A stretch of DNA of 61,066 bases, taken from positions 1 through 61,066 of the IMG/VR virus record IMGVR_UViG_3300007734_000736. The stretch is one strand, 5' to 3'. The position numbers and the translations under genes were made by a program. This stretch comes from a virus. Below, piece by piece: positions 22,025-35,928 of this stretch (positions are counted from its first letter, which is position 1; each line of letters opens with the position of its first letter). Under the pieces are notes generated by a model. That model did no database searches. It saw nothing but the letters and a program-made list of their open reading frames with translations, and was not told the origin of the DNA.

Positions 22025-22291
22025 ATGAACAATAAAATCAAAGCAACCCTCGCAACCCTTGAGCGTACAATGGGCATTGACTTCGTGCTTGACCTCTACG
22101 ACGACTTCCTCAACACCGATGCCTTCGCCTCCTATGCAGGCTTCCGCGACCGCCTCAACGCCGCATACAACGAGCCCTCTCCCGAATGGGCAGACATCAT
22201 CCGGGGACAAGCAAGCGTGTTCTGCGACACTCAAGCGCAAGAGGCAGCGTTTCAGGGAACTACCTACGCCAAAAGTTCGTACTACCGATGA
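22025..22291 (+). CDS. Early small protein (88 residues)
   Basis: First gene behind promoter B. Mostly helical and acidic (FVLDLYDDFLNTDAFASYAG). Not recognised. The stop overlaps the next ATG. Confidence 0.7.
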   Translation: MNNKIKATLATLERTMGIDFVLDLYDDFLNTDAFASYAGFRDRLNAAYNEPSPEWADIIRGQASVFCDTQAQEAAFQGTTYAKSSYYR

Positions 22292-22515
22292 GCCGGTTCG
22301 CAACACGAAGCGACGACAAGGGTCGTGAGTATGTAGTGCGAGTGTCAAGTGCCCCTGCGTTGGATGGGGGCACGGCACTCCGCCGCACCGAGCGCAAAGT
22401 TCGGGGCAAGCGAAAAGCCGACGCCGTGGAACTATTCGTGGCCTCACGTATTGACCGCAAGGTAGAACGTAGCACCGAGCAACGGCTTGAGCGGAGGGCA
22501 AAGCGGGGGCGTTGA
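22288..22515 (+). CDS. Arg-rich early protein (75 residues)
   Basis: Start at the ATGA overlap (22288). Very basic C-terminal half (ERRAKRGR end), compatible with nucleic-acid binding, but no family is seen. Confidence 0.6.
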   Translation: MSRFATRSDDKGREYVVRVSSAPALDGGTALRRTERKVRGKRKADAVELFVASRIDRKVERSTEQRLERRAKRGR

Positions 22516-22699
22516 GCGCCCCCTCACTTACGGGATATGTGGCGACCACACGTAAAACGGACACGAAGGGGATACCTATGCCCCTACACCAGGGTGTGCT
22601 ACGTGCTATCACCGTGCTCGTAACACGGACACCCACAAGCGGACACGTGTGCAGTCCGCCTATGATGCACACACATACAAACGACCTAACTACGACGTG

Positions 22700-22861
22700 A
22701 TGGCGATAAACGAGATACAGCGCATAAGGCAAGCAACCCACGCCTATATGTATGCAGACGAGCGCAGCGATGCGTTCAAGGACGCGGTGGAGTACCTCAA
22801 AAAGGTACACGACACCTACGGAACGATTAACCCAGTAACAATAGCAGAAATAACACGATGA
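22700..22861 (+). CDS. Early small helical protein (53 residues)
   Basis: Likely ATG at 22700 (the frame is open to a GTG at 22649). Helical, EYLKKVHDTYG. The 185 bases before it (22516-22699) hold only an unlikely TTG-start frame. Its stop overlaps the next ATG. Confidence 0.5.
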   Translation: MAINEIQRIRQATHAYMYADERSDAFKDAVEYLKKVHDTYGTINPVTIAEITR

Positions 22862-23354: not shown

Positions 23355-24956
23355 ATGAGCAATTTTTCAGTAGGCGACTTGGTTCGCATTGACTTCGGTT
23401 CGTTTCAAGACCGAGAGGCATTACGTGGTGTATTCGTACACCCTTCTATGCGCCCATTACAGGGCACTGTGGCGAAGGTCGTTTTGGTGCGCGACTCGTT
23501 GGTCGACGGGGGCAGCGACGACGTAGCGTACAAGCTGTGCGGCACGGACGGCGAGGGCTTTGGATGGACATTCCTGCCGGAGTGGCTTTCATTAGCAGAG
23601 CCAGGGGCAACAGTAACAACGCCAGAGCCTGAAATGATTGAGGACTACGAGGGCAATATGCTTCTTGCGCAAACATGCTTGCAGCTGACCGCACCGAGCG
23701 AGCACGAGGGCCAGTGGGCGCACCGGGCAGTCGTAAGCCGAGTGCGACTTGAGAACGGCAACACCGTGTATCTACTTGACTCCGAGTACCACGACTTGGT
23801 TGTTGAGGTGGAGGGCGAGAACTATCTACGCCAGGACATAGACGAGGGCGACACCGTAGAAGCCTATGGCGGCAATTACGGCGGCCAACTTATTTGGATG
23901 GAAAATTCCATCTTTGCCGAGGACGTGCACGACTACTTCCACGAGAGCGACGCTGGCGAGTACGTATTCTACCACGACAATCGTGATGCGTACTACACAT
24001 ACGAGCCAGAGCAGGGCACGCTTGATTACCACGCGCAGCAATCACGTGGCTACATCCGACGCACTAATGCGGGCACGCTGTACACCATTGGCTTTGAGGT
24101 TGAGAAGGAGGACGGAGATATCCTGCAATCCTACACATCCGACGACACGACCAGCCTGGGTTGGTCGCGTGAACACGACGGCTCACTTGATGAAGACACC
24201 GGCTACGAGTTAGTGTCGCCTATCTACGACTTGTTTGATAGCAAACTTGACGACGAAATTGCCGCATCGCAAACCCTACGCGACCACCTCAACGCCGACT
24301 CAAGCACGCGGTGCGGTGGGCATATCAACTTCGGCAAGGTCGGCACTTCGGGGACGCAACTACTCAAGGAGTGCGCCGCCTTTCTTCCGCTGTTCGTTGC
24401 GCTCTACCGCAAGCGTGTGCTATCACGCTGGGCAAATATGCGTGTGGACATCAACGAGTACGACGGCAGCGACCGATACGTGGCCTTCAATGTGAAGGGC
24501 GAGTACATTGAGTTCCGACTCGTCGCTCGTGTCCACGATGTAGACACCATGCTATGGCGGCGCGACCTGTTCCGCATCATGGCGAGCAACCCCAACATCG
24601 GGGCGGCAAAGGTGCAGCAAATGATGCTTGACCGCCGCAGCGCACTACACAAACTCCTTCGCAAGATGTACACGGAGGAGAAGCTGTTGCGCCTTGCGTG
24701 CTGGTACTCACAATTCGCCGACGCTATGTTTGACACCTTGCAGTTCAGCAAGACCGGACACGGCGTGATGATGGACTTCTTCGTGTCGTCATTGCGACGC
24801 TCAGGCAAGCGTGTCGGCGTGAGCATTGAGGCCGTTGAGGGCTGGGTTGAGGATGTACACTTCATCCTATCACGTGCAAAAGGTGGCGACAAGTACGCCA
24901 ACAACGTGAAGAAACTTGACCGCAAATCGCTCAAATTCTTACAGGTCAAGGGCTAA
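23355..24956 (+). CDS. Amidoligase (GS-like COOH-NH2 ligase) with N-terminal SH3-like region
   Basis: 533 residues from the ATG at 23355. The N-terminal part (SVGDLVRIDFGS, then GTVAKVVLV) looks like an SH3/KOW-type barrel. The catalytic part matches the Amidoligase_2 pattern: IGFEVE (245-250), DGSL (275-278), YELVSP (284-289), CGGHINFG (320-327) and YIEFRL (384-389). Amidoligases are glutamine-synthetase-fold enzymes that use ATP to join a carboxyl to an amine. Phage members occur beside class II glutamine amidotransferases, as here. The target, whether a protein, a lipid or a cell-wall part, is unknown. It is separated from the partner gene by a terminator overlapping its stop. Confidence 0.8.
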   Translation: MSNFSVGDLVRIDFGSFQDREALRGVFVHPSMRPLQGTVAKVVLVRDSLVDGGSDDVAYKLCGTDGEGFGWTFLPEWLSLAEPGATVTTPEPEMIEDYEGNMLLAQTCLQLTAPSEHEGQWAHRAVVSRVRLENGNTVYLLDSEYHDLVVEVEGENYLRQDIDEGDTVEAYGGNYGGQLIWMENSIFAEDVHDYFHESDAGEYVFYHDNRDAYYTYEPEQGTLDYHAQQSRGYIRRTNAGTLYTIGFEVEKEDGDILQSYTSDDTTSLGWSREHDGSLDEDTGYELVSPIYDLFDSKLDDEIAASQTLRDHLNADSSTRCGGHINFGKVGTSGTQLLKECAAFLPLFVALYRKRVLSRWANMRVDINEYDGSDRYVAFNVKGEYIEFRLVARVHDVDTMLWRRDLFRIMASNPNIGAAKVQQMMLDRRSALHKLLRKMYTEEKLLRLACWYSQFADAMFDTLQFSKTGHGVMMDFFVSSLRRSGKRVGVSIEAVEGWVEDVHFILSRAKGGDKYANNVKKLDRKSLKFLQVKG

Positions 24957-24983
24957 TTAGGTTAGCCCTTTGACCTTTTTTTC
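24943..24983 (+). terminator. Terminator overlapping the amidoligase stop codon
   Basis: Stem AGGTCAAGGGCTAA / TTAGCCCTTTGACCT (one bulged T), 5-base loop and seven T. The last codons and the stop form the left arm. Confidence 0.8.
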
Positions 24984-25007
24984 TAATCTCTAATACCTAT
25001 CTATACT

Positions 25008-25913
25008 ATGTGCATTGCAATTCTTAACGCTGGTAAGCGTATCACCAAAGACAAACTGTCCAATTCATGGAACAACAACGACGACGGCGCAGGCATTCTA
25101 TACGTTGCCGACGGTACGCTCGTGTCCGAGAAATTCCCTAACACCAACATCGCCGAGAGCGAGGCAAACTTTGAGCGTTTCTATGCCCGATACCTTGACG
25201 TCTACAATCAGTACGGCAACCTTCCGATGCTTTTGCACTTCCGCATTGCAACACACGGACTGACACCCGAATACCTGCACCCATTCTTCGTGTCCGATAC
25301 CGTGGGCTTCGTGCACAACGGCATCATCTACGGACTCGGCAGCAAGGACAAGAGCGACACTTCGGACTTCGCCGACCTGTTGTCTACGCTCATCATACCG
25401 AGCGTGGCTACCCTTGACAACCCCTTCATTGACGAGAGCATCTACCGATTCATTGAGGACAGCAGCAAGCTCATCTTCCTTGACAACACGGGCGAGTACC
25501 GCATCTTCAACGAGGGACTCGGACAGTGGGTTGGCGAGAACTGGTTTTCTAACGGCACACACAACTACAAGCCTATCACCAAGTGGGGCAAGTGGGACGA
25601 CAACTACGGCGCATCCATCAAGACCACACCCTACGCCAAAAAGTACGACAGTCAATACTGGGACGACATTGAGGACGAGCGCATCATGTACCCCTACGAC
25701 ACGGCGTTCGGCAGCGGCTACTCACTTGAGGACTTTGACTTTGACGCGCCATTCTCCGACAAGAAATACAAGTGTCATGACTGCGACACGCAGACACACG
25801 TGAACTACAACGGCGAGTGCATCACGTGCTACTCGTACATCCCGGCGTCTGCCGACGAGGTGATTGACAAGATTGAGAAGCTGGAGAGCGAACCTAAAAA
25901 GTACCTACAATGA
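25008..25913 (+). CDS. Class II glutamine amidotransferase-like protein
   Basis: 301 residues. MCIAI puts the Ntn nucleophile at Cys2 after Met removal. NNNDDGAG (22-29), LLHFRIATHG (75-84) and GFVHNG (100-105) are the usual glutaminase motifs. A C-terminal zinc-ribbon pair CHDC...CITC (about 266-285) follows an acidic linker. It would release ammonia from glutamine for the amidoligase encoded just upstream, a pairing known from comparative studies of amidoligases. No synthetase domain is fused to it. Confidence 0.85.
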   Translation: MCIAILNAGKRITKDKLSNSWNNNDDGAGILYVADGTLVSEKFPNTNIAESEANFERFYARYLDVYNQYGNLPMLLHFRIATHGLTPEYLHPFFVSDTVGFVHNGIIYGLGSKDKSDTSDFADLLSTLIIPSVATLDNPFIDESIYRFIEDSSKLIFLDNTGEYRIFNEGLGQWVGENWFSNGTHNYKPITKWGKWDDNYGASIKTTPYAKKYDSQYWDDIEDERIMYPYDTAFGSGYSLEDFDFDAPFSDKKYKCHDCDTQTHVNYNGECITCYSYIPASADEVIDKIEKLESEPKKYLQ

Positions 25914-26090: not shown

Positions 26091-26801
26091 ATGTCATTCT
26101 TCAATTTTGATTACGACCCAAACAACCCACGAGTAGGCGACCGAGTGATTGTCGTCGGCGATGAGCGGCTCAGTCAAATGGCTGAAACAAATGAGCGGGC
26201 TGTACCTTGGTTCGTTCAACACAGGGGCGGTGAGTTCTACATCAGCGAGATAGTAGCAGGTAACATATATCTTGCCTCACCGCTTACCAACAGCATTGAT
26301 AACTTTACCTGGAGTCCGAACTGGCTTGAACCTGCGCCCACGATGTTGCAGGAGGGTACTTGCGTTATGGTTCCACACATCAACTTGAACGAACGCTATC
26401 GCAACAGTGGGAATTGGTGCAGCGACATGGACAGATACACACACCAGCCGCTTAAAATTATACATCCTACTTCTAACGGTTATTTTGAGGTATACCGCAA
26501 TGGGTACTCATGGCATCGCGATTGGATGTTCATCATGCCGGAGTCGCAGCGAACAGCGCCGAGAACAAGAGGTGACTTCAAGGTAGGCGACACGGTTATG
26601 GTTTTGAGTGGACACCTGGGAAGCCGCTCGTTCGGCAACAAGGGTGTAATCACTGCTGTTGGCGTTGACCATTGCGCAGTGACGAGTTCAACAAAGCCAA
26701 GAATGAATCATGCAATTAGTTACAGTCGGCTTATGCTCCTTGCGCGAGACGGTAAGCTGACATACGAGCCCAATGATGCGCGACTCCTTAACGAGGCATG
26801 A
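26091..26801 (+). CDS. SH3/KOW-like repeat protein (236 residues)
   Basis: Start at the ATG at 26091. Two barrel-like units: GDRVIVVGDERL near residue 17, and FKVGDTVMVLSGHLGSRSFG followed by GVITAVG near 162. The fold recalls the N-terminal part of the amidoligase. It may bind substrate or a partner. Not a recognised enzyme. Confidence 0.65.
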   Translation: MSFFNFDYDPNNPRVGDRVIVVGDERLSQMAETNERAVPWFVQHRGGEFYISEIVAGNIYLASPLTNSIDNFTWSPNWLEPAPTMLQEGTCVMVPHINLNERYRNSGNWCSDMDRYTHQPLKIIHPTSNGYFEVYRNGYSWHRDWMFIMPESQRTAPRTRGDFKVGDTVMVLSGHLGSRSFGNKGVITAVGVDHCAVTSSTKPRMNHAISYSRLMLLARDGKLTYEPNDARLLNEA

Positions 26802-29675: not shown

Positions 29676-29914
29676 AGACACCAATGCAAGAGTTGATGGA
29701 TGAGTTCGCAAAGAAAGCGGACTCACTACCTGATACGTTAGATGCGAACGTAGCCTACTTGGTATTCCAAGAGTGCTATGATATGGCAAAGTCAATGCTT
29801 GAAAAAGAGAAAGCGGTGATTATGGATGCCTATAGTTCTGGCGAACACCAACAAGGGTTTGAAGGAGAGGCTGAACAATACTACAACGAAACCTTTAACA
29901 CCAAAGAGAAATGA
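29672..29914 (+). CDS. Conserved small phage protein, paralogue of 31053-31301
   Basis: 80 residues. The C-terminal half MLEKEKAVIMDAYSSGEH followed by AEQYYNETF matches LLDKEKAMVKDAFNFGG and AEQFYHENY of the gene at 31053. This KEK-(I/V)-x-DA(Y/F) pattern recurs in many phages with no fixed function. Confidence 0.7.
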   Translation: MKTPMQELMDEFAKKADSLPDTLDANVAYLVFQECYDMAKSMLEKEKAVIMDAYSSGEHQQGFEGEAEQYYNETFNTKEK

Positions 29915-30672
29915 AAACGCTAATCCTGGGTGACACCCACGGGCGCACCAACTGGAAGCAGGCGATTGACGCACATCCAGACGCAGGTCACATCATCTTT
30001 ATGGGTGACTACTTTGATTCGTTTGACATCAGCGGTGTTGAGCAGTTGCACAACTTCAATGAAATCATTCGCTTCAAGGAGTCTACCGACAAGGAGGTTG
30101 TGATGCTCATAGGCAACCACGACCACCACTACCTTGACGTAGGCGAAACCTACAGCGGGTACAAGGCGGCACACAAGTGGGACTTCCAAGATGCGCTGAC
30201 TAAGAATATGCATCACCTTCAGATTGCATACTCTCTTGACGAACTGCTGTTCTCTCACGCAGGCGTAAGCCCTGTGTGGATGGACAAGACGTTTGGTGCA
30301 AAATGGAACGAGGACAACTTGGTTGAACTGCTCAATGAGAAATACAAGCATCAGCCAACTGCATTCAACTTCAGCCCCGACAGCTTTGACCCATACGGAG
30401 ATTCACCGAAGCAGGGTCCGCTTTGGATACGGCCCCGCTCACTGATGGGCTGCAACAAGGGCGAGAACCGACTGAAGAAGAAGTTCATTCAGATTGTCGG
30501 GCACACCCAAGTGAATAGCATCTTTGACAGCATCGTTTCCTGCAACAAGTCTATGGGTGGACGATACTACCTGATTGACGCCATGGAGAAGGATGGATAC
30601 ATCACTTACGAGAACGGAGAGATTACGCCTCACGAACTCTATATCTCGCCAAATGTGCCATCAGAAGCATAG
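29911..30672 (+). CDS. Calcineurin-like metallophosphoesterase
   Basis: 253 residues with all metal-binding motifs in order: GDTHG (7-11), GDYFD, GNHDHHY, SHAG, and GHT near residue 195. These bind a dinuclear metal centre. The motif set resembles Ser/Thr phosphatases and ApaH-type diadenosine tetraphosphatases; the substrate cannot be told. ATGA-coupled to the previous gene. Confidence 0.88.
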   Translation: MKTLILGDTHGRTNWKQAIDAHPDAGHIIFMGDYFDSFDISGVEQLHNFNEIIRFKESTDKEVVMLIGNHDHHYLDVGETYSGYKAAHKWDFQDALTKNMHHLQIAYSLDELLFSHAGVSPVWMDKTFGAKWNEDNLVELLNEKYKHQPTAFNFSPDSFDPYGDSPKQGPLWIRPRSLMGCNKGENRLKKKFIQIVGHTQVNSIFDSIVSCNKSMGGRYYLIDAMEKDGYITYENGEITPHELYISPNVPSEA

Positions 30673-33877: not shown

Positions 33878-34237
33878 ATGGACATAGCTGTTGCCGTCTA
33901 TGGAACCCTCAAAAGCGGCTATGGCAACAACTTTCTGCTGGAAGATGCAACACTGGTGGGCAAGGGCCGAACCACCGATAAATACCCCCTAATCATCCGA
34001 CAAGGAGGACTTCCGTTCCTTCTCAACAAGAAGAACATTGGATACAACGTGGAGGTCGAGGTATACCTTGTGGACAAGAAGATTCTGCGCCGCTTGGACA
34101 TCCTTGAGGGGCATCCGGAATGGTATTGCCGCCGAGAGATAAGCGTGACCATTGATGAGATTGATACTCCGATTAGGGCGTGGACATACTTCGGCCCATC
34201 TGAATACGACAACCTGACCTACCATGAGCGATACTAA
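33878..34237 (+). CDS. Gamma-glutamylcyclotransferase-like protein
   Basis: 119 residues from ATG 33878. AVYGTLKSGYGN near the N-terminus is the substrate-binding YGTLK loop of the GGCT/AIG2 fold. A later LDILEGHPEWYCRR carries the expected acidic residue (E of LEG). The family cyclises gamma-glutamyl amines to pyroglutamate, releasing the amine. In amidoligase gene clusters it is thought to reverse or trim the amide; here it lies 8 kb from that pair. Confidence 0.82.
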   Translation: MDIAVAVYGTLKSGYGNNFLLEDATLVGKGRTTDKYPLIIRQGGLPFLLNKKNIGYNVEVEVYLVDKKILRRLDILEGHPEWYCRREISVTIDEIDTPIRAWTYFGPSEYDNLTYHERY

Positions 34238-34781
34238 ATTCTTCATTGAGATTGGCAGTTGTGACTTCGGTACGCTGAACCACCTTGCCAACCACGGATG
34301 GCACGGCATGATTGTAGAGCCGGTAGAGAAGTACCTTAATCGACTTGAGCGTATGCCTGGAGTTCACTACATCAACAAGGCCATTGACATCACCAATGCA
34401 ACCAAGGAAATGTACGTGTACAAGGACAGCGTATGTGAGAACGACCGCGACTTCAGCGGAATGAGCTCGTTTGGCGAGTATGTGATTGACCAGAACCGGG
34501 CTCTTGTGGAGCCGGTTCTCGTGTCTACCATTACCTATGCGGAGCTGATGTACGCGCACGATGTGAAGCGTGTGGACTTCCTGAAGATTGACACCGAGGG
34601 ACACGACTGGGTTATCCTCCAGCTGGTAATCTACGCGGGGCCGATGCGCCCAAAGCTCATCAAGGCGGAAACCAAACACCTTGGAGAAAACCTTGAGAAA
34701 GCCATCAAGTTTCTTGAGGAACGAAAGTACCTGGTGTACCAAGAGAAAGAAGACCTTTATGCAATTGATTTACTACCATGA
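34224..34781 (+). CDS. FkbM-family methyltransferase
   Basis: 185 residues. FFIEIGSCDFGTLNHLANHG (6-25) is the SAM loop, followed by GMIVEPVEKYL, then VDFLKIDTEGHDWVIL, the family signature, and IKAETKHL. FkbM enzymes methylate hydroxyls, often on sugars. It overlaps both neighbours and sits with a sulfotransferase and a glycosyltransferase, which suggests glycan modification. Confidence 0.85.
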   Translation: MSDTKFFIEIGSCDFGTLNHLANHGWHGMIVEPVEKYLNRLERMPGVHYINKAIDITNATKEMYVYKDSVCENDRDFSGMSSFGEYVIDQNRALVEPVLVSTITYAELMYAHDVKRVDFLKIDTEGHDWVILQLVIYAGPMRPKLIKAETKHLGENLEKAIKFLEERKYLVYQEKEDLYAIDLLP

Positions 34782-35281
34782 AACGAGAAGAACTAATCCA
34801 AAAAACCATTGAGACCTTTTGTGACATAAATGAGGTGTCGCGAGACACCTTGAGCATGAAGGTTCGCAACAGAAGCGTTGTGGACTGTAGGCGCATGATT
34901 TGGGCATACCTGAGAGAAAACACAAGCATGACGCTCCTTGAGCTCGCCCACATCATTGACTTTGAGAACCACGCAACAATTCTCTACCATTGCAAGCAGC
35001 ACCAGGAACTTATCACAAAGACCGAGCGAGGCAAGTGGATGTACCCAAGCTATGGACCATACTATGAGCAAGGTGCTACACAGCTAAACGCAATGGTCCG
35101 AGTATTCAAGATGAACCAGAAGTTTCAAAACTATGCACTTGAGTATCGCCGAACGGAGGATGGACACGAGGCCAAGTACGTGGTGAATTCTCTGTCGCTT
35201 CTTGACGCCGTGTACCAACACGAAACAATGACATCTATGGCTGGATATGAGCTGATATCCGTAAAGCTCAAGGAGTCATGA
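34778..35281 (+). CDS. DnaA domain-IV-like DNA-binding protein
   Basis: 167 residues. A region near residues 35-68 (VDCRRMIWAYLRENTSMTLL, then DFENHATILYHCKQHQELI) follows the DnaA C-terminal pattern: basic helix, turn, and a DHATxLY-type recognition helix that reads DnaA boxes. No ATPase domain. It could bind the phage origin, possibly the phased repeats near 21-23 kb, or recruit host replication proteins. Confidence 0.75.
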   Translation: MKREELIQKTIETFCDINEVSRDTLSMKVRNRSVVDCRRMIWAYLRENTSMTLLELAHIIDFENHATILYHCKQHQELITKTERGKWMYPSYGPYYEQGATQLNAMVRVFKMNQKFQNYALEYRRTEDGHEAKYVVNSLSLLDAVYQHETMTSMAGYELISVKLKES

Positions 35282-35928
35282 TTATCTCCGACAAGTATCG
35301 GTGCATCTTCATCCGCATACCCAAGACTGGTAGTACCACGATTGAGAATCTGTTGATTGCGGCCGACCCGGACTGCTTGAGCTCGGACAACTCAACTCCG
35401 CCATACGGACACCACGGATGGCCGGAGGTAAGGGATATGGCTGGTGAGCGCTGGGACACCTACTTCAAGTTTGCGTTCGTTAGGAATCCATACAGCTGGT
35501 TTCTAAGCAATTACTCAGACCACATGAAGTACAGCCTTGAGGATGTGTGGGGAGTGCATGAGATACTGAACGAGAAACACCAGCTGCCAGCACCCTGGAA
35601 CTTCATCATTGATGCCCCAAGAGTTATGGCCTTGGCTTCGATGATTCAGTTCTGGTATCACGGAGACTACCTGGGTGGCAAGCATAACAGAATCGTTACA
35701 CAGTCGGCATGGGTTCCGCCGGGAATAGACTTCGTTGGAAAGATGGAATCGTTTGACGAAGACCTTGAGATTGTAGCAGAAGCCATAGGCCTTGAGCTGA
35801 CCGAGAAAGCACCACAGGAAAACAAGAGCAATTCAGAAAGGCTCATGCTTGACAAGACTGGCGCACGATTACTAACCGCATTGTACGACGAAGACTTTGA
35901 ACGATTCGGTTATGAGCGAAAAGGATGA
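35278..35928 (+). CDS. Sulfotransferase family protein
   Basis: 216 residues. IPKTGSTTIENLL (14-26) is the 5'-phosphosulfate loop and FAFVRNPYSWFLSNYS (65-80) the 3'-phosphate-binding segment, as in PAPS-dependent carbohydrate sulfotransferases. It would transfer sulfate to a glycan hydroxyl or amine. Phage members are uncommon. Coupled by ATGA to the DnaA-like gene. Confidence 0.85.
   Translation: MIISDKYRCIFIRIPKTGSTTIENLLIAADPDCLSSDNSTPPYGHHGWPEVRDMAGERWDTYFKFAFVRNPYSWFLSNYSDHMKYSLEDVWGVHEILNEKHQLPAPWNFIIDAPRVMALASMIQFWYHGDYLGGKHNRIVTQSAWVPPGIDFVGKMESFDEDLEIVAEAIGLELTEKAPQENKSNSERLMLDKTGARLLTALYDEDFERFGYERKG

Follow-up and report, generated by a model that had tools for sequence, protein, structure and literature searches.

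A divergent amidoligase, its predicted glutamine amidotransferase partner and a cyclotransferase in a phage that probably infects Bacteroidota

Do two adjacent genes at positions 23355-25913 of a viral genome encode an amidoligase and a glutamine amidotransferase (GAT) that belong together, is a cyclotransferase (GGCT) encoded further downstream a member of the same set, and what might such a set modify? We addressed these questions in the window, meaning the whole analysed stretch of 61,066 nucleotides (IMG/VR record IMGVR_UViG_3300007734_000736), and in relatives from phage and bacterial sequences. An earlier note made from the letters alone had proposed that these three genes, together with two SH3-like proteins and a 58-residue partner, may form a new variant of the amidoligase sets proposed previously.

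The gene set and its genomic setting

Both genes of the pair were found where the earlier note had placed them, on one strand and with a gap of 51 bases between them. The features considered here are as follows.

23355-24956, plus strand: GS-like amidoligase of 533 aa (counted from the ATG at 23355) and divergent relative of Amidoligase_2, identified by ORF, motifs, predicted structure and linkage; AlphaFold2 predicts an N-terminal beta-rich region (about residues 1-235) and a catalytic GS fold (about 238-500)
25008-25913, plus strand: predicted class II glutamine amidotransferase, 301 aa, with Met1-Cys2 and a C-terminal zinc ribbon
25773-25829, plus strand: zinc ribbon of the GAT, C256-x2-C259 / C271-x2-C274
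25910-26086, plus strand: 58-aa ORF with a 4-base overlap with the GAT stop, not conserved in the nearest relatives
26091-26801, plus strand: SH3/KOW-like protein, confined to the nearest relatives and not counted as a core part
33878-34237, plus strand: free-standing GGCT of the GGACT/AIG2 type, with YGTL and the catalytic Glu of LEGHP

The amidoligase, GAT and GGCT genes all lie on the plus strand alongside replication and recombination genes, and the minus strand carries the structural genes. The GGCT had been assigned to the same operon region as the pair; 8 kb and about 20 genes separate them, so that the term applies only loosely. The closest terminase to that of the window is from podovirus ctfjg026 (47% identity), with those of Flavobacterium Elemovirus (about 39%) and Cellulophaga phages also near, affinities which suggest that the host is probably a Bacteroidota bacterium.

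The small partners added in the earlier note were not supported as parts of the set. None of the four nearest relatives has an equivalent of the 58-aa ORF, which is probably not part of it. As for the two SH3-like proteins, the downstream one (26091-26801) is present in none of 12 sister loci and its SH3/KOW character is barely backed by profiles; hhalign gave no support for its being a paralogue of the ligase N terminus.

A number of other neighbours deserve mention. Small ORFs directly upstream of the amidoligase (22025-22291, about 22186-22515 and 22649-22861) are better conserved than most neighbours, occurring in the nearest relatives as well as in 9-12 of 12 sister loci, and could possibly encode partners or substrates of the pair. 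Shortly past the GGCT, at 34224-35928, lie an FkbM-type methyltransferase gene and a Galactose-3-O-sulfotransferase-like gene, and the minus strand at 3-2276 encodes a single long protein with glycosyltransferase 4, glycosyltransferase 25 and 2OG-oxygenase-like parts. The window also has a calcineurin-like phosphoesterase gene (29911-30672), and such a gene is frequent in OM43 phages bearing an amidoligase-GAT pair.

Catalytic motifs and predicted fold of the pair

Pfam PF12224 (Amidoligase_2) scored 12.8 bits against the window ligase, under the gathering cut-off of 22, and 30 bits against the ligase of a relative (L006). A PHROGs search with the window ligase gave nothing significant, and no matches were returned by a scan for close relatives using the single ligase sequence or by tblastn against annotated phages. 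Homologues needed alignment-based searches, for which a 10-row alignment served as query, a 56-row version being too diverse. Because of its PF12224 score the ligase is, on its sequence, a divergent subfamily and not a threshold member of that family.

Within a 56-sequence alignment the motifs G246-x-E248-x-E250, D275-x-S277, E285, C320-G-x-H323, R354 and E386-x-R388 are invariant or nearly so, with G246, E248, E250, D275, E285, G321, H323, R354, E386 and R388 fully invariant. The signature residues of the GS-like amidoligase superfamily (GxExE, DxS, E, H, R, ExR) are thereby present in the window ligase, in agreement with the earlier note. In the usual H-x-H motif Asn takes the place of the second His, in the window as in 23 of 75 relatives, and the mechanism may therefore differ from that of the type members.

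An AlphaFold2 model of the ligase built on the 56-sequence alignment had a pLDDT of 86.9 (a single-sequence model, at 33.5, was not used), the least reliable part being the first 90 residues with a pLDDT of about 50-75. In Foldseek YbdK was the top solved match, ahead of glutamine synthetases and the Pup ligase PafA, and VIA-align gave a Z of 9.5 over 163 residues at 3.5 A for glutamine synthetase (2d3a) and a Z of 8.3 for YbdK, these matches covering residues 238-444. The catalytic part is thus predicted to have a GS-like fold, at about residues 238-500. Mind-bomb repeat domains (4tse, 4xi7) also matched the model over 81-87 columns with a Foldseek probability of 1.00; since the GS part occupies 238-500, this fold-only match most likely falls in the N-terminal region.

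The downstream protein of the pair (25008-25913) is a predicted class II glutamine amidotransferase, having a Cys after Met1, a Gln-binding Arg and Asp and an Asn-Gly oxyanion hole; Met1-Cys2, R79, N104-G105 and D117 are kept in all 66 distinct relatives. Its match to Pfam GATase_6 (0.011) is below the cut-off, and GlmS GAT domains are its sole recognisable solved sequence relatives. The zinc ribbon noticed earlier alongside Cys2 has four Cys that are invariant in the nearest relatives. It ends the protein in the window group, and a CxxC...CxxC ribbon is likewise C-terminal in GAT-GGCT fusion proteins. In the nearest pair of relatives (L004/L002) dN/dS is about 0.19 for the ligase, about 0.06 for the GAT and about 0.04 for the GGCT, other pairs being near synonymous saturation; the genes are under purifying selection.

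Linkage of the pair and fusion of GAT with GGCT

We scanned IMG/VR with the GAT alignment, obtaining 301 relatives of which 80 were kept, and found the amidoligase in 83 of 83 GAT loci examined. Scanning in the other direction, with ligase patterns, left 78 loci; 72 contain a GAT, and the remaining six are on contigs that stop inside the ligase or no more than about 1.1 kb away from it. The linkage of ligase and GAT is reciprocal, and the conservation in relatives that had been suggested as a check on the pair is borne out. Among bacterial genome contigs the ligase adjoins a GAT relative in 16 of 18, those with the pair belonging mostly to Coriobacteriia and Clostridia, plus one Flavobacteriaceae. 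The genes usually overlap by about 10 bases or are separated by 40-60 (-10 to +60 bases). The GAT and ligase phylogenies are congruent (Mantel r 0.92, with none of 2000 permutations as high), although congruent trees are also expected if whole phage modules are inherited together, which weighs against the amidation model discussed below. Neither loss of catalytic residues in homologues nor independent inheritance of the genes, both named in the earlier note as counter-evidence, was observed.

One record (L037:2420-7503) carries a double cassette, ligase-GAT-ligase-GAT, whose second GAT ends in a degenerate GGCT-like part without YGTL and the catalytic Glu; no recognisable GGCT was seen in any of the eight two-ligase records tested. 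An apparent amidoligase-GAT fusion in an Atopobiaceae MAG (L112) was rejected because a class II GAT requires Cys at the N terminus; the Arg/Pro-rich stretch before the internal Met-Cys resembles a frameshift.

The GGCT reported in the earlier note is present, matching Pfam GGACT (PF06094) at 7.6e-21 (75.3 bits, cut-off 22.8) and solved mammalian GGACT at 7.5e-12. Its catalytic Glu aligns with the site changed to Gln in the 3jud variant and is found in 95 of 95 GGCT sequences compared. The gene occurs in all four nearest relatives; among 49 pair-bearing records from the wider set, many of which are fragments, 15 have it.

In podovirus ctfjg026 the ligase gene is followed by one for a single chain of GAT, GGCT and zinc ribbon. 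Scanning IMG/VR with this architecture kept 80 loci, all fused, which with ctfjg026 and L097 makes 82 loci in 63 clusters below 90% identity. As the query preferentially recovered full-length matches, the count measures the spread of the fusion and not the proportion of loci that have it. The ligase lies upstream of the fusion, within the stretch examined, in 74 of the 82 loci, and the GAT Cys2, R, NG and D and the GGCT YGTL and Glu are kept in 77 of 78 fused proteins aligned. Phage C75C1 has a GAT-GGCT fusion without the zinc ribbon. In a tree rooted at its midpoint, with no outgroup, the free GGCT of the window groups with the fused copies, and the GGCTs of UFV-P2, CW02 and other phiEco32-like sets lie on a separate branch. 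A fused GGCT was found in none of the 83 GAT-collected loci, and many of these records are without any GGCT.

Since GAT-GGCT fusions are widespread and the gene is present in 4 of 4 nearest relatives, there is strong evidence that the GGCT is a genuine third member of the ligase-GAT set, a link which the fusions make stronger than the earlier note could know. The fusions of ctfjg026 (MW202828.1 47708-48925) and C75C1 (OQ984151.1 20149-21045) are labelled in GenBank only as "gamma-glutamyl cyclotransferase". No paper describing the fusion was found among the literature searched; an earlier description is possible, the 2009 proposal of such sets being known to us via citing papers.

Known systems and possible functions

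Phage sets of the amidoligase type were proposed in 2009 (Iyer 2009; also Hardies 2013), as cited in PMC5498523. The cassettes of phiEco32, LUZ24, RIO-1 and CW02, and that of UFV-P2 (PMC3890496), share with the window an Amidoligase_2-type ligase, a class II GAT, a GGCT and a podovirus early region. However, phiEco32/LUZ24-type cassettes also have a PF14395 COOH-NH2 ligase and an ATP-grasp ligase, and the GGCT of phiEco32-type cassettes forms a separate tree branch from that of the window. The PF14395 ligase is absent from the window and from records L001, L003 and L004, and was detected in the control UFV-P2. A UFV-P2 ATP-grasp query, which matches CW02, T2S2 and ctwe8250 as positive controls, had no hit in the window or its relatives with the E cut-off relaxed to 10, a search that a strongly diverged copy could escape.

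The OM43 phages MEP401 and MEP402 (PMC10580990) resemble the window in having an adjacent amidoligase and GATase pair of the same HMM families, but their pair genes overlap, the ligase is 18% identical to that of the window over its full length, and a GGCT searched for in MEP402 was not found. In ctfjg026 (MW202828.1) and C75C1 (OQ984151.1) the amidoligase is followed by GAT and GGCT as in the window set, as one protein rather than separate genes. Glutamine synthetase, YbdK, GGACT (A2LD1) and the GlmS GAT domain are fold or sequence relatives of single enzymes, and none of these joins a ligase, a class II GAT and a GGCT. Phage sets with these three enzymes plus two further ligases were known already; the suggested new variant rests on how far the ligase has diverged, on the smaller set and on the lineage of fused proteins, not on the small partners.

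Class II GATs liberate ammonia from glutamine, GS-like ligases form amides through acyl phosphates and GGACT enzymes convert gamma-glutamyl-amines to 5-oxoproline. The reading we favour, at roughly even chances, is glutamine-fed amidation of a peptide-type carboxylate with gamma-glutamyl editing. The GAT would hydrolyse glutamine by its N-terminal Cys after Met1 removal and pass the ammonia to the neighbouring amidoligase, which with ATP would convert a carboxylate to an acyl phosphate, as glutamine synthetase does, and then to an amide. The GGCT would strip gamma-glutamyl from gamma-glutamyl-amines as 5-oxoproline, and the set may in this way both make and remove gamma-glutamyl/amide links. 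The substrate would most likely be a peptide or protein, recruited through the GAT zinc ribbon and the beta-rich N-terminal part of the ligase, the latter because the model matches Mind-bomb repeat domains, which are peptide binders. Within this scheme we infer the chemical steps, which way the ammonia flows, what the GGCT does and that the target is of peptide nature. Besides the Asn in the H-x-H motif of the ligase, further points count against it: a simple amidation system does not obviously require a cyclotransferase, and the class II GAT fold also serves gamma-glutamyl amidohydrolases (EgtC), which are not ammonia donors.

A somewhat unlikely alternative builds on such amidohydrolases. 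The ligase would join the gamma-carboxyl of glutamate to an amine, as occurs in gamma-glutamylcysteine and gamma-glutamylpolyamine synthesis, the GAT-like protein would be an EgtC-like amidohydrolase and the GGCT a second, cyclising remover of the gamma-glutamyl cap, like BtrG in butirosin synthesis, with no ammonia transfer. The fusion in 82 loci of two domains that both act on gamma-glutamyl amides would fit such a cycle, as would the similarity of the free GGCT to GGACT, a gamma-glutamylamine enzyme, and the presence of YbdK, a gamma-glutamylcysteine-ligase-type protein, among the best fold matches. However, the GAT has kept all of its Gln-binding residues (Arg, Asn-Gly, Asp), and the GlmS amidotransferase domains are the sole solved proteins recognisably related to it by sequence; the lack of fused GGCTs in GAT-collected loci, with many records having no GGCT, suggests that the pair works without a GGCT.

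By analogy, the set may instead amidate or extend peptidoglycan or surface peptides and thereby block superinfection, a role that we consider unlikely but which is repeated as a proposal for related phiEco32-type sets in PMC5498523 and PMC10580990. The FkbM methyltransferase, sulfotransferase and glycosyltransferases of the same genome are in keeping with it; however, the genes of the set sit in the early/replication region and their products have no demonstrated signal or membrane segment. Direct cleavage of peptidoglycan by the GGCT is also unlikely, because the enzyme requires a free alpha-amino group and the D-Glu of the stem peptide has none. No enzyme supporting DNA hypermodification as the purpose was found among the part of the window proteins scanned. 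That the pair stays together only through whole-module inheritance, the GGCT being an unrelated stand-alone metabolic gene, is highly improbable: the GGCT does lie 8 kb off with about 20 genes between and occurs in just 15 of 49 wider pair-bearing records, but the reciprocal linkage extends across phages too diverged for synteny, GAT and GGCT are fused in 63 clusters and the window GGCT groups with the fused copies.

Reciprocal linkage and fusion together provide strong evidence for a place of the cyclotransferase in the pathway. In many phages the fusion reduces the system to two proteins, the ligase and its fused partner, which makes a direct biochemical test simple. A bolder and quite doubtful extension is that the three enzymes work as a single machine by which one particular protein, of host or phage, is reversibly given amide or gamma-glutamyl groups; in it, ligase and GAT would write, the GGCT would erase, and the Mind-bomb-like SH3 region and zinc ribbons would recognise the target. 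If true, this would represent a new post-translational modification in abundant Bacteroidota phages.
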